Below are positions 14,758-22,015 of a stretch of 64,000 bases of DNA, one piece after another. The position numbers and the translations under genes are program-made. The stretch covers positions 43,826-107,825 of the forward strand of contig NZ_JASHIK010000018.1 in the NCBI RefSeq assembly GCF_030733745.1. The letters are read 5' to 3'. Numbering within the stretch: the first letter of the stretch is position 1; each line of letters opens with the position of its first letter. The DNA comes from Stappia sp. MMSF_3263 (GTDB taxonomy: Bacteria; Pseudomonadota; Alphaproteobacteria; Rhizobiales; Stappiaceae). The notes under the pieces are model-generated. The model saw only the letters and a program-made list of their open reading frames with translations, ran no database searches and was not told the origin of the DNA.

Positions 14758-15588
14758 TCAGACGTCCTCGTGAACCTGCCGCGCCTGCGCTTCCTGCGCC
14801 TTGAGTGCATCGAGGCGCGGCATCGATACCGTGCTGTAGCCGCTGTCGACGAAATGTACCTCGCCGGTGACACCGGAAGACAGGTCGGAAAGAAGATAAA
14901 GGGCGGAACCGCCCACTTCATCGATCGTCACCGTGCGCCCGAGCGGCGAATGCTGCTTCTGGTAGTTGAACATCACCCGAGCGTCCGAGACGCCCGAGCC
15001 GGCGAGCGTGCGCACCGGGCCGGCCGAGATGGCATTGACGCGGACATTCTGCGAACCGAAATCCATCGCCAGGTAGCGCACGGAGGATTCAAGCGCCGCC
15101 TTGGCCACGCCCATGACGTTGTAGTTCGGCATCACCCGGTTGGAGCCGCCATAGGTCAGCGTCACCATGGCGCCGCCATCCGTCATCAGGTCCGCGGCCC
15201 GCTTGGCGATTTCCGTGAACGAGAAACAGGAAATCAGCATCGTCCGGGTGAAGTTCTCGCGGGTCGTGTCGGCATAGCGGCCGCGCAGTTCCGACTTGTC
15301 GGAAAAGGCGATGGCATGCACGAGAAAGTCGATCGAACCCCACTCGGCTTTCAGCGTCTCGAAAACCGTGTCCACGCTCGCCACATCCTCGACATCGCAC
15401 GGGATCAGCAGCTTTGCCCCGACGCTGTCGGCCAGCGGCTTGACCCGGCGGCCGAAGGCGTCGCCCTGGTAGGTGAACGCCAGGTCCGCGCCCTGGTCCG
15501 CCAGCGCCTTGGCGATGCCCCAGGCGATCGAATGGTTGTTCGCGACGCCCATGACAAGGCCGCGCTTGCCTTTCATCAATCCCGACAT
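14758..15588 (-). CDS. fabI: Enoyl-[acyl-carrier-protein] reductase FabI
   Basis: NADH-dependent reduction of enoyl-ACP, the last step of each fatty acid elongation cycle. The 276-residue SDR-fold protein has MKGKRGLVMGVANNHSIAWG, the FabI-type catalytic Y-x6-K in NYNVMGVAK and SAGPVRTLAGSG. The open frame upstream overlaps the end of fabB, and the MSGLMKGKRG start is 10 bp after the fabB stop. It is the third gene of fabA-fabB-fabI. FabI is the target of triclosan-type inhibitors. Confidence 0.96.
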   Translation of the reverse strand: MSGLMKGKRGLVMGVANNHSIAWGIAKALADQGADLAFTYQGDAFGRRVKPLADSVGAKLLIPCDVEDVASVDTVFETLKAEWGSIDFLVHAIAFSDKSELRGRYADTTRENFTRTMLISCFSFTEIAKRAADLMTDGGAMVTLTYGGSNRVMPNYNVMGVAKAALESSVRYLAMDFGSQNVRVNAISAGPVRTLAGSGVSDARVMFNYQKQHSPLGRTVTIDEVGGSALYLLSDLSSGVTGEVHFVDSGYSTVSMPRLDALKAQEAQARQVHEDV

Positions 15589-15598
15589 TCTGGCCCCC

Positions 15599-16822
15599 TC
15601 AGCCGTGATAGCGCGACAGCGCGAGGGAGGCGTTGGTGCCCCCGAAACCGAAACTGTTGGATAGCACCGTGTCGAGACCGGCATTGTCGATCCGTTGCAT
15701 CGCGATCTCGTCCGGGCTGAGCGCCGGATCGAGTTCGGTGATGTTCGCGGATGCGGTAATGAAATCGTTCTGCAGCATCAGGAGGCAGTAGATCGCCTCG
15801 TGCACGCCGGTCGCCCCGAGGCTGTGGCCGGTGAGCGACTTGGTCGAGGATGCGACGGGCTGGTCGTCGCCGAAAACCCGGCGGATCGCCTGGATCTCGC
15901 CGACATCGCCGACCGGCGTCGAGGTGCCGTGGGTGTTGACATAATTGACCTTGCGGTCGCCGAGCGTCTCGATCGCAAGGCGCATGCAGCGTTCGCCGCC
16001 CTCGCCCGACGGCGCGACCATGTCGTAGCCGTCGGAATTGGCCGCGTAACCGGTCACTTCGGCGTAGATCTTGGCGCCGCGCGCCTTGGCGTGCTCGAGT
16101 TCCTCGAGCACCACCACGCCGCCGCCTCCGGCGATGACGAAACCGTCGCGGGACACGTCATAGGCGCGCGAGGCCGTGGTCGGCGTGTCGTTGTATTTGG
16201 ACGACATCGCGCCCATCGCGTCGAACAGGCAGGACAGCGTCCAGTCCAGCTCTTCGCCGCCGCCGGCGAAGACCACGTCCTGCTTGCCCCACTGGATCTG
16301 CTCGGTGCCGGCGCCGATGCAGTGGGCCGAAGTCGAGCAGGCCGAGGTGATGGAGTAGTTGATGCCCTTGATCTTGAAGGGGGTCGCCAGGCAGGCCGAA
16401 TTTGTCGAGCTCATGCCGCGGGTGACCATGAACGGTCCCATCCGCTTCGGAGATCCCTTCTCGATCACAGTCTTGTGCGCCTGGAAGATGTTCTTGGTCG
16501 AAGGACCGCCGGAACCCATGACAATGCCGGTGCGCGGGTTTGAGACGTCGCCATCTTCAAGTCCGCTGTCGGCGATCGCCTGCTGCATGGCGAGATAGTT
16601 GTAGGCCGCGCCGTCGCCCATGAAGCGAAGCTGGCGCTTGTCGATCTCGGCCGTCAGGTCGATATCCGGCATGCCGTGCACCTGACTGCGGAAACCGTGT
16701 TCCACATAGTCGGGGGCCGCGGAAATGCCGGACTTTCCCTCGCGCAGGCTCGCAAGGACTTCCTGCGCCGAGTTTCCGATCGACGAAATGATGCCCAGTC
16801 CGGTGATTACCACCCGCCTCAT
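15599..16822 (-). CDS. fabB: 3-oxoacyl-ACP synthase I FabB
   Basis: Condensing enzyme needed with FabA for unsaturated fatty acids. 407 residues; [16 protein letters not shown] opening, active-site cysteine in SACSTSAHC, and the two catalytic histidines in [11 protein letters not shown] and [12 protein letters not shown], with the glycine loop SFGFGGTN near the end. It is the middle gene of the fabA-fabB-fabI set; a 185-bp gap separates it from fabA. Confidence 0.97.
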
Positions 16823-17007
16823 CGCGGTCTCCCGTATAGGTTCGCTCGACGCTCAAGGCGTCGTTCCGGTCTCAAGATCTCTCGCGCCCCGGGGGCCGCG
16901 TTACCCTGCAGGCTGCAGGACGGTGTCCCAACCACATAGGCGCCAACGCTCCGGCGATCAATCGTGGCGATCGCGCGCCGGCCCGTTCAGCTCTGTGGCA
17001 CCCGCGG

Positions 17008-17508
17008 TCAGGCCTGGAACAGGCCGACCTTCAGGTCTTTCGCCTGATAGATCTTCTCGCCATCCGCCTTCAGCCATCCGTCGGCAACGCCGAGGACGAG
17101 ACGTCCGCGCCGCAGCTTGCGGATGTCGACGCCGTACTCCACCAGCTTCACGTCGGGCGTGACCATCTTCGAGAACTTGATTTCGCCGGTGGAAATGGCG
17201 CGGCCGCGTCCCGGCTCGCCGAGCCAGCCGAGGAAGAAACCGGTCATCTGCCACAGGGCGTCGAGGCCGAGGCAGCCGGGCATCACCGGGTCGCCCTGGA
17301 AATGACAGGCAAAAAACCAGAGGTCCGAACGAATGTCGAACTCGGCGCGGATACAGCCCGAGCCGTGCTCGCCGCCATCTTCCGAGATCTCGGTGATCCG
17401 GTCGAACATGAGCATGGGAGGAAGCGGCAACTGCGCGTTTCCGGGGCCAAACAGCTCGCCGCGTCCGCAGGCGAGCAATTCTTCGTAGGAGTAGCTGGAT
17501 TGCCGCAC
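17008..17508 (-). CDS. fabA: 3-hydroxydecanoyl-ACP dehydratase/isomerase FabA
   Basis: Introduces and isomerises the cis double bond in anaerobic unsaturated fatty acid synthesis. The 166-residue hotdog protein has the catalytic histidine in [13 protein letters not shown] and the aspartate in LGLDALWQ, both invariant. It is divergent from irr, the standard arrangement in Rhizobiales. Confidence 0.96.
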
Positions 17509-17932
17509 GTTCTTCCCATTCCCGCAGGTTTTTCAAGATGCCCCGTCTACCGGCCATGGCTTCATGCGGCCGTGTGCCGGTTCGGAGTCTGGTTCTGCCG
17601 CGCTTACTAACATAGCACCTTCCGCTCCGAAAGCCCGAGAAGTCGTTGCAATCATGCGTTTTCGCGCTGCATTCGCGTGCTTCGCCGCGTTTTGTCGCAG
17701 GCTTTCACACCATAATACTCATGGTGCGCTGCAGTGGGTCGTATTTCGACATTTGCCCGACAGGGCCGCAGGACTTGCATGAAGGGCGCGGTTCATGGCA
17801 GAAAACTGCGAAGAAGATGATCCGGCCGCCGTGTTGCCGCCGAAGTTTGCGGCCGGCATTGACCGGTGGCACGGGAGCCGCCATCTCTGGGTTGGTGGTA
17901 CAGTTTCAAAGAGCCAAGGTGAGCAGGCGAAC
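17509..17932. other. fabA-irr divergent intergenic region
   Basis: About 420 bp holding the promoters of fabA and irr. I could not find a convincing iron control element (ICE) by eye. The open frame upstream of the chosen irr start (from 17795) does not resemble the family. Confidence 0.4.
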
Positions 17933-18352
17933 GTGAGAGAGATGCAGCGACAGCGCGAAGTTCAGGACATGCTGAGAACGGCCGGTTTGCGCCCGACCCG
18001 TCAGCGCGTTGCGTTGGCCGAATTGCTGTACTCGCGCGGGAACCGCCACATCTCGGCCGAGCTTCTGCACGAGGAGGCCGAGGCCGCAGATGTGCCGGTG
18101 TCTCTGGCGACCGTGTACAACACGCTGCACCAGTTTACCGAGGCGGGTCTGCTGCGCGAGGTTGCCGTCGAGGGCACCAAGACCTATTTCGATACCAACA
18201 CCGACGACCACCACCATTTCTTTATCGAGGGCGACAACCGCGTCATCGATGTTCCCGGCTCGGGCGTTTCGATGACGCGTCTGCCGGAAGCGCCCGAAGG
18301 CATGGAAATCGTGCGTGTGGATGTGGTGATCCGGCTCCGTCGCAAGGACTGA
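17933..18352 (+). CDS. irr: Irr, iron response regulator of the Fur family
   Basis: Heme-responsive Fur-family transcription factor that controls iron and heme genes in Rhizobiales. Visible are the winged-helix sequence AGLRPTRQRVALAELL, recognition helix PVSLATVYNTLHQF, the metal-binding HHHFF and DTNTDDHH. There is no CP-type heme regulatory motif like that at the N-terminus of Bradyrhizobium Irr. The start is uncertain: GTG at 17933, ATG at 17942, or an ATG at 17795 with a poorly conserved extension. Position next to fabA supports Irr over Fur or Zur. Confidence 0.88.
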   Translation: MREMQRQREVQDMLRTAGLRPTRQRVALAELLYSRGNRHISAELLHEEAEAADVPVSLATVYNTLHQFTEAGLLREVAVEGTKTYFDTNTDDHHHFFIEGDNRVIDVPGSGVSMTRLPEAPEGMEIVRVDVVIRLRRKD

Positions 18353-19742: not shown

Positions 19743-21827
19743 CTAGAAGACCCGGCAGTACTGCGGCGGAGAACCCGGACGCTGCCAGTTGACGCGATTT
19801 CCCGAACCGCTGAGCACATATCCGCGATCGGCATAGTAAAGATCGACACCGCCGCGGGACCGGTCCGCGAGCGTGACCGGCGAGAGGCCTTGCTCGCGCA
19901 CGATCGCCACCTGCCGGTCGTTGTCGATGGTGACGGACAGGTAGGCACCGCTGTCGCAGTCGTATGACAGTTCGACTAGGTCGCCGCCCGGGACGAAGGG
20001 CGCGGGAGGCGGGGGCGCAATCGGTCTGCCGGCGATCGGCGCGTCACCGCCCCGTCCCGGTGCGATGGTGACCGTGCGGCTGCGTCCGCGCGGCAGATAC
20101 ATGCCGAGGCAGCGCCCCGAAGGGGTCGAAACCAGCCAGGGATGGCCGGCCAGCGTCTGCTGCACCATCCGGCTTCCCGGCGGAACCCTTGCATAGGTCT
20201 CGCGCAAACCGTCGAAATTGATCCAGTGCACGACGACCGGGCGCTGCCGGCGGTTCTCGAAGATGATGGTGGCGGGCAGATCGCTGGGCACCGAGGTGAT
20301 GAAGCCTTCATCGGCGCAGGTCGGCCCCTGCGGATCCGCGCCGGCAACCGGCAGCCCGCGTGTCAGGTCGGGATTGTCGGCGATAGCGGGTGCCGGGGTG
20401 GCGCAGGCCTGCTGGAATGCGCGCACCGGGCCGGCGCTGCCGGACAATGACACCCGGTAGCGCCAGCTTCCCTGAAGCGCCACCGTCAGCGTTTCGCCGC
20501 GCGCCAGACCCGACCAGATCGGATCGTCGGCGGCGAGCCGTACCACCGGCATCGACTGGCCGCTTTCATTGTTGGCCGATGACCCGCGCCCCGTGTAGCG
20601 GCGGGTGATGTCGCGGGCGGAAAGCGCGACGTCCACCGGCGCATTCTCGGCAAGGCGCAAATCGCCTGGCACGAAGGTCGCGTCAATCTGGTTGGACCCC
20701 CTGCTGCAGGTCGCCAGGAAGCCGCGGTCGTCGGTTTCGCGGATGCCGTAGACAAGGCTCAAACTGTCGCCCTGGCCCGAAGCAACATACCATTCGCGAT
20801 TGTCGAACAGCGGCAGCGCGAGCGCGTCATGCGGAGCGGAGGAACCGCCGTTGGCGGCAACCTCGTCCTGGGCATCTTCGGCCGTCTCCGCTCGCGCTTC
20901 CCTCCCTTCGTCGGTTCGTTCCTCTGTCCGGGTGGCCGGATCGGTACGGGCGGTCTCGTCGCGGCTGCCGCGCAGGTTGCCGGAGGTGTCCGATCCGTCC
21001 GCGCCCGATGTCGTCGGTCTGCGGACGCCGCCGGCGAGCGGCGGGGCGGCGGGGCCGGCGGTGGAGGGCACCGCCCGGCGCACGCCGCTTCCCGCCTGTT
21101 GCTTTGCCGCGGCCTTGGTGCTCATCGTCACCTTCCAGTCCCCGCAAATATCGACGGTGTCCTGCAGGATGCGGCCGTCCGCTAGCACGAGCCGCATCGG
21201 CCGACGGCAGTCGATCTGTCCTTCGTTCTTGGCGTTGCCCTCGACCTCGACGAAGACGCGCGCCTGGGAGCGGCGGCGCACCTGCGCCGGCCTGTCATCG
21301 ATGAAGACCTCGCGGATCGCGGTGTCGTCGTCGGTCTGGATCATCACCAGCTTGCGTTCGATCCGGCCGGAGCTGGTTTTTTTCGCTTGCGCGGGAGCAG
21401 AGGAGACGGTCTCCGCGGGCGCGGCCTTCGGGGGTGCCGGGCGGGTCGCGGCAGCCGTCTCGACGGTCAGCGTGTAGTTCGCCGCGCAAAGATCGTAGGC
21501 GCGAGACAGCGACCGGCCGTTCGACAGCGTGATGTCGAGTGTCTGCTGACAGGCGAAATCCTTGTCTGCCGCGCCGGCCTCCACGAACAGGCTCGTGTCC
21601 GACTTGCCGACGGATTTGAGCGCGGTCCCCTCGCTTGTCGCCGACGTGATGGCGATCGCGGGATTGTCGCTTTTCAGCGAGACGATGCGGATATCGGCGC
21701 TGGCCGCTCCCCCGGACAAGGCCAGCACCGTGGCGGTGACCATGAGCCTCAGGGCAGTTGTGAATGTGGAGCTCCCGGAAATGGCCGCGGATCGTGTCGG
21801 GCCGGCCGGCAGGGAGCGGTTTTTCAT
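19743..21827 (-). CDS. Secreted multidomain protein with a VHL-like beta domain and a C-terminal MliC-like domain
   Basis: About 694 residues with a signal peptide (hydrophobic LMVTATVLALSGGAASA). Two N-terminal cysteine-containing repeats resemble each other (FACQQTLDITLSNGRSL and IDCRRPMRLVLADGRIL), followed by a low-complexity charged linker, a beta-rich segment, and a domain near 20085-20320 reading VVHWINFDG, ETYARVPPGS and GHPWLVSTPSG. This aligns without gaps to the beta domain of human VHL as I remember it, including the hydroxyproline-pocket Trp88, Tyr98, His115 and Trp117. The last ~75 residues (19743-19975; YDCDSGAYLSV to QYCRVF) look like an MliC-type lysozyme inhibitor. Starts at 21839 or 21854 are possible. 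Biological role unknown. Confidence 0.72.
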   Translation of the reverse strand: MKNRSLPAGPTRSAAISGSSTFTTALRLMVTATVLALSGGAASADIRIVSLKSDNPAIAITSATSEGTALKSVGKSDTSLFVEAGAADKDFACQQTLDITLSNGRSLSRAYDLCAANYTLTVETAAATRPAPPKAAPAETVSSAPAQAKKTSSGRIERKLVMIQTDDDTAIREVFIDDRPAQVRRRSQARVFVEVEGNAKNEGQIDCRRPMRLVLADGRILQDTVDICGDWKVTMSTKAAAKQQAGSGVRRAVPSTAGPAAPPLAGGVRRPTTSGADGSDTSGNLRGSRDETARTDPATRTEERTDEGREARAETAEDAQDEVAANGGSSAPHDALALPLFDNREWYVASGQGDSLSLVYGIRETDDRGFLATCSRGSNQIDATFVPGDLRLAENAPVDVALSARDITRRYTGRGSSANNESGQSMPVVRLAADDPIWSGLARGETLTVALQGSWRYRVSLSGSAGPVRAFQQACATPAPAIADNPDLTRGLPVAGADPQGPTCADEGFITSVPSDLPATIIFENRRQRPVVVHWINFDGLRETYARVPPGSRMVQQTLAGHPWLVSTPSGRCLGMYLPRGRSRTVTIAPGRGGDAPIAGRPIAPPPPAPFVPGGDLVELSYDCDSGAYLSVTIDNDRQVAIVREQGLSPVTLADRSRGGVDLYYADRGYVLSGSGNRVNWQRPGSPPQYCRVF

Positions 21828-22015
21828 GTCGGTATCCATCTTGCGCGCATGCAACCTGTTGATGTGCCTTCAGGATGCACAGTGGCCCGGGTTTTTGGCC
21901 GAAGCAAGACGGTGCGGGGGCCTGCCGGCATGTCGCAAATCGGGTGGTGCGCCGCCCGGCGCGGCTCTAGGCTGTGTCGACATGTTTGCAACGACTGCAA
22001 GAGGAGACCGCCGCG

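Follow-up and report, generated by a model that had tools for sequence, protein, structure and literature searches.

A predicted envelope protein of Stappia carries a VHL beta domain that keeps the core of the hydroxyproline pocket

We analysed a 64,000-nucleotide window of the genome of Stappia sp. MMSF_3263 (contig NZ_JASHIK010000018.1) and found on its minus strand a gene (19743..21827; its parts are given below in window coordinates, same strand) for a putative envelope protein with a VHL beta domain that retains the core of the human hydroxyproline pocket. Judged from the sequence, this is a genuine VHL beta domain with a match far beyond chance, and the function that we rank highest, with a probability of roughly 40%, is that the gene product recognises hydroxyproline or a near mimic of it outside the cytoplasm. 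The open reading frame is intact; its longest reading (19743..21854) gives 703 amino acids from a TTG codon and supplies the residue numbers used throughout, the ATG at 21827 being the likelier start (694 amino acids plus stop, residues 10-703). A homologue (P0002) has 694 amino acids and is 99% identical across residues 340-703, the part searched. A homology search at E up to 1e-3 gave 31 proteins; the nearest with a name come from Stappia, and several of these are publicly labelled 'VHL beta domain-containing protein'.

An initial annotation of this gene had proposed a VHL-like beta domain from a gap-free alignment to human VHL residues 87-119, together with a profile search and a superposition as ways of checking it. 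The alignment was confirmed and remains gap-free over human residues 63-119, and both checks, once run, recovered the domain: Pfam VHL (PF01847) matches residues 519-575 with E 3.1e-8 and 33.9 bits against a curated cut-off of 21, and in the predicted structure residues 518-602 (20049..20303) adopt the VHL beta-sandwich fold and superpose on pVHL chains. A phmmer search of the PDB, with 25 matches in all at E up to 10, returned 24 distinct pVHL sequences (one from mouse) at E 1.6e-6 to 4.9e-6. The pocket residues named at the outset also stand, with Trp544 (20223..20225), Tyr554 (20193..20195), His571 (20142..20144) and Trp573 (20136..20138) identical in the alignment to human Trp88, Tyr98, His115 and Trp117, and Thr567 (20154..20156) in place of Ser111. 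In human VHL the hydroxyproline site consists of Trp88, Tyr98, His110, Ser111, His115 and Trp117, with the 4-hydroxyl held by Ser111 and His115 (PMC9528729; papers are cited here for the part of their text that was available), while another list has Ile109 instead of His110 and describes the residues as almost invariant across animals (PMC6650433).

The pocket is conserved well beyond this protein. Ranks were taken only from domains found by genome searches, the query being either the window protein or the VHL model of Pfam, and domains gathered by the H.W pattern or by shared words were excluded because of selection bias; the locus rows L001-L096, less L064, which has no open frame, gave 95 rows that clustered to 35 domains. 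In these, human positions 88, 98, 111, 115 and 117 rank 1, 14, 6, 3 and 5 of 57 in conservation, and this five-position set, the choice of the initial annotation, was equalled by 17 of 200,000 random five-position sets. The rim that contacts HIF (67, 69, 91, 107, 109, 110 and 112) is not conserved, 139,077 of 200,000 random sets being as good. Since the residues contacting ring and hydroxyl are conserved and the rim is not, bacteria as a group keep the core of the pocket and not its HIF-specific rim.

Several observations weigh against hydroxyproline recognition, and they concern the pocket itself, its state in close relatives and the gene content of the genomes. His110 and Ile109, which are also part of the human site, are not retained, and the published six- and seven-position sets give less extreme figures (216 of 200,000 with His110 added, 223 of 200,000 with His110 and Ile109). 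The clustering merged away two rows with Asn at His115, and Thr instead of Ser111, seen in 31 of the 35 clustered domains, may alter the ligand. Asn78 and Gly93 lie outside the pocket and are as well conserved as it is (ranks 4 and 2 of 57). These two, with Gly104 (rank 9), would fit an explanation in which the conserved residues form the core of the beta-sandwich and the domain is only structural, and so would the facts that Trp117 and Phe76 are fold-core residues in the aromatic tetrahedron of pVHL and that the Y98H protein is less stable in vitro (PMC3688787). On account of the six- and seven-position figures and the in vitro result for Y98H, we have slightly lowered hydroxyproline recognition and raised this structural explanation. 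We nevertheless hold it to be unlikely, as constraint from the fold does not by itself predict all five positions jointly, and modelling of Y98H left the structure unchanged (PMC3688787). Moreover, the conserved His115 is replaceable: two genomes of genus g4 (L087 and L091) with Asn at this position and Ser at 111 (WYSNW) are still recognised as VHL, a substitution that counts against a hydroxyproline ligand as well.

Closer to the window, the Tyr98 position varies. Each of the 13 further genomes of the genus that were searched has Gln there, and the three genomes of genus g3 have Glu (two) and Gln (one); Tyr is found in g5 and in the ten g7 loci listed, and Phe in L042. Among 30 close homologues that have a VHL domain, Gln occurs in 24 and Tyr in three, with Pro, Glu and Asp once each; within this set an intact Tyr98 is confined to this species and those closest to it. 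The remaining four pocket positions are kept in every row of the genus and of g3 that was compared. Hence, the perfect pocket of the window protein is a local state, which might have arisen by reversion.

The protein is not a VHL of the ubiquitin-ligase kind. No alpha (elongin C-binding) domain was detected in it, Pfam at E up to 10 giving the VHL beta domain alone, and C-terminal of the VHL domain the model shows a linker of low confidence and then an all-beta domain, and no helix there reaches four residues. The VHL core lies between two cysteines, Cys513 (20316..20318) on its N-terminal side and Cys582 (20109..20111), invariant in the alignment, after the residue matching Trp117, which are likely disulfide partners. 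All 259 bacterial VHL proteins that were examined have cysteines on both sides of the core (two of 261 were omitted as their core motif was not located), which fits an oxidising compartment. At the N-terminus, a likely signal peptide (21696..21827, residues 10-53) was judged by eye from a hydrophobic stretch followed by ASA/D around residue 53, cleavage being guessed after ASA; the model begins with a helix in this region, the N-termini of P0003 and P0006 are alike, and a hydrophobicity script run on the family was positive for 204 of 230 proteins. We infer that the protein is located in the envelope with its VHL domain outside the cytoplasm, in keeping with the initial annotation. Compared with human pVHL, the window protein thus shares the gap-free alignment, the predicted fold and four identical pocket residues with Thr for Ser111, whereas it has no detected alpha part, carries its own cysteine pair, is predicted to be extracytoplasmic and has His110, Ile109 and the remaining HIF-contact rim altered.

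If hydroxyproline is recognised, the VHL pocket would bind trans-4-hydroxyproline, or another hydroxylated residue much like it, in extracytoplasmic peptides, the domain acting as a stand-alone, disulfide-held recognition module without an elongin-binding part and the protein working as a receptor or adhesin and not as an adaptor for a ubiquitin ligase. Its ligand would probably originate outside the bacterium, in algal or animal matrix proteins for instance. The genome of the strain encodes a 4-hydroxyproline epimerase with an adjoining D-amino-acid dehydrogenase-like gene, from which external hydroxyproline is likely to be encountered. In the same genome a search with PF13640 at E up to 0.01, other oxygenase families not being searched, gave one match, which is WelO5-like; with no evident peptide prolyl 4-hydroxylase in that search, any hydroxyproline ligand is probably external. 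The matching gene (L066 75-848, G000:C38) encodes a 2-oxoglutarate oxygenase that matches the family of the halogenase WelO5 (PF22814, 50.9 bits against a cut-off of 27) and adjoins a gene that by eye resembles an IucA/IucC-type siderophore synthetase.

Co-occurrence across 297 genomes of the order did not support a simple coupling of VHL to hydroxyproline metabolism, with 53 genomes over the Pfam cut-off counted as VHL-positive and five weaker ones of 58 scored as negative. PF13640 oxygenases were present in 25 of 53 VHL-positive and 92 of 244 other genomes (p 0.22), and hydroxyproline epimerase in 14 of 53 and 70 of 244 (p 0.87). Hydroxyproline catabolism was rejected as a partner of VHL on the latter result. 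The suggestion of the initial annotation that plant cell-wall or collagen-type proteins are bound is weakened to one possible class of ligand, for which these tests gave no support. An endogenous code, in which secreted proteins are hydroxylated by the bacterium that makes them and then read by VHL, has a precedent for its enzyme in a prolyl hydroxylase described from Pseudomonas (PMC5701443). We rejected it as highly improbable, given the lack of association with PF13640 and the single WelO5-like match beside a siderophore synthetase-like gene, although PF13640 is broad and is the one oxygenase family that was searched.

The lack of a link to hydroxyproline genes would also agree with a retained pocket that binds another ligand, such as unmodified proline-rich segments, a sugar or a piece of peptidoglycan. 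This explanation, which we place second and consider possible, gains from the Thr at position 111, from the loss of His110 and Ile109, from a proline-rich APPPPAPFVP in the protein's own linker, and from the environmental origin of at least one VHL carrier, a groundwater Bradyrhizobium assembly by its title. In addition, the VHL domain lies C-terminal of the lysozyme- or wall-related domains LprI in 8 of 105 proteins and SH3_3 in 2 of 105 (precomputed Pfam matches, two of each rechecked). Against it, the kept set includes the human residues that touch both the 4-hydroxyl and the ring of hydroxyproline (PMC9528729), and hydroxyproline recognition stays ahead. The LprI and SH3_3 fusions (P0059, P0069, P0098, P0136 and others) form a second tie of VHL to lysozyme- and wall-related domains, and one locus (G207:C10:111363-111896) has tandem VHL matches, both within an open frame of 323 amino acids.

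The first such tie is the C-terminal domain of the window protein (19746..19988, residues 623-703), which the initial annotation had called MliC-like. Its fold is upheld by a profile match to the Pseudomonas aeruginosa MliC chain 3f6z_B (E 0.0094), by a predicted eight-stranded MliC/PliC fold and by a relative, P0031, that exceeds the Pfam MliC (PF09864) cut-off of 22 with 26.2 bits; the window protein itself did not reach that model, and P0032 (21.0 bits) and L042 (19.2 bits) stay below it. With the known MliC/PliC structures (3f6z; PliC 4mir) the domain shares the predicted fold and a cysteine at both ends, and it differs from them in being fused to a long multidomain protein and in missing both motifs for lysozyme contact, SxSGAxY and YxxxTKG (PMC5507604), residues 665-685 reading RSRGGVDLYYADRGYVLSGSG. 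An MliC/PliC-type lysozyme inhibitor that uses VHL for docking is thus improbable, and classical lysozyme blocking, on which the initial annotation had also drawn, is unlikely on sequence grounds, although the Neisseria protein ACP inhibits lysozyme without these motifs (PMC5507604). Under hydroxyproline recognition, the MliC-fold end would probably add a binding or structural surface.

VHL domains are not rare in the family to which this genus belongs, where 68 of 87 genomes carry one. In a sample of 297 genomes of the order, 58 have a match at E up to 0.01 and 53 exceed the cut-off; in a phylum sample of 398, 8 have one and 7 exceed the cut-off. One narrow pattern from the alphaproteobacterial alignment matched 31 named loci, all of which we take, from titles and genera, to be alphaproteobacterial. 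That bacteria have VHL domains is already known: a paper on a gammaproteobacterial VHL protein lists further bacterial relatives, including a cyanobacterium, and in its available text reports computed surface pockets, without comparing them to the hydroxyproline site and with no residue names starting with Trp or His (PMC9002001). Its subject, Litorilituus sediminis EMK97_00595, is likewise predicted to be secreted and has a VHL beta domain, but is 213 amino acids long, against the 694 of the window protein with its two N-terminal repeats, middle domain and MliC-fold end (PMC9002001). In a literature search conducted mostly without subscription journals, we recognised no other paper on the bacterial domain among the entries listed, judged by titles and abstract openings, and found no earlier report of the pocket-centred conservation or of the full-length architecture.

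More broadly, these domains might be widespread bacterial readers of extracellular hydroxyproline, an old module of the alphaproteobacterial envelope that sits here on an MliC-fold scaffold and from which animal VHL may descend, a proposal that we regard as doubtful. If it were true, the recognition step of animal oxygen sensing would be separable from, and perhaps older than, HIF and ubiquitin ligases, and bacteria would own a dedicated means of sensing or holding matrix proteins that are collagen-like or algal. For detecting hydroxyproline and for studies of VHL ligands, a small and soluble VHL domain held by a disulfide would also be a useful reagent.

From the N-terminus, the protein consists of two all-beta repeats with two cysteines each, a long low-confidence linker, a middle domain, the VHL domain, a proline-rich linker and the MliC/PliC-fold domain. 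Repeat 1 (21450..21695, residues 54-135) was delimited from model strands and sequence and repeat 2 (21105..21368, residues 163-250) from model strands; neither has a name, and the cysteine pair of repeat 2 (184 and 205 of the alignment's first row) is invariant in 25 sequences. The linker (20835..21095, residues 254-340) is probably disordered, its predicted local distance difference test score (pLDDT) being below 50 over nearly all its length. The middle domain (20403..20795, residues 354-484), delimited on the model, has no Pfam name, and its sole PDB profile match is weak (4p99_A, E 0.002, no single stretch passing); the results of the fold searches were taken up by VHL matches. In the 68 VHL-bearing genomes of the family the alignment with the window protein spans the middle and VHL domains, and middle-like sequence N-terminal of VHL was seen in other Hyphomicrobiales proteins (alignment read by eye, without computed significance). 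Of the 16 genomes of genus g6, 15 match the middle domain only, and in the six read it ends a different protein. P0032 has the middle part and the near-threshold MliC match without VHL. An insertion of VHL into a constant scaffold was thus only partly borne out, P0032 fitting it and the six g6 proteins, of 15 matched, not. The domain follows a pattern of LVYG..ETDD..F.A.C and SL.GSA..V..F...C in alphaproteobacterial proteins, also in L034, L052, L128 and L129, and accompanies VHL or MliC or forms the end of another protein.

In each of the 14 loci from the genus (L067-L080, among them that of the window) the VHL gene adjoins genes for Ada, DUF2244 and Nth, and in the three g3 loci Ada alone lies beside it. 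The search used five window neighbours as queries and found none of them in the remaining 13 of the 30 loci, whose flanks cover only about 1.5 kb. In the 31 named loci the VHL proteins alone cluster broadly (30 loci), the next clusters holding at most five loci. These DNA-repair neighbours are uninformative on function. Elsewhere in the window (14758-18352), genes for a FabI-like reductase, a beta-ketoacyl-ACP (acyl carrier protein) synthase-like protein (by eye), FabA and a Fur-family regulator stand in series, a row that is ordinary for Alphaproteobacteria.
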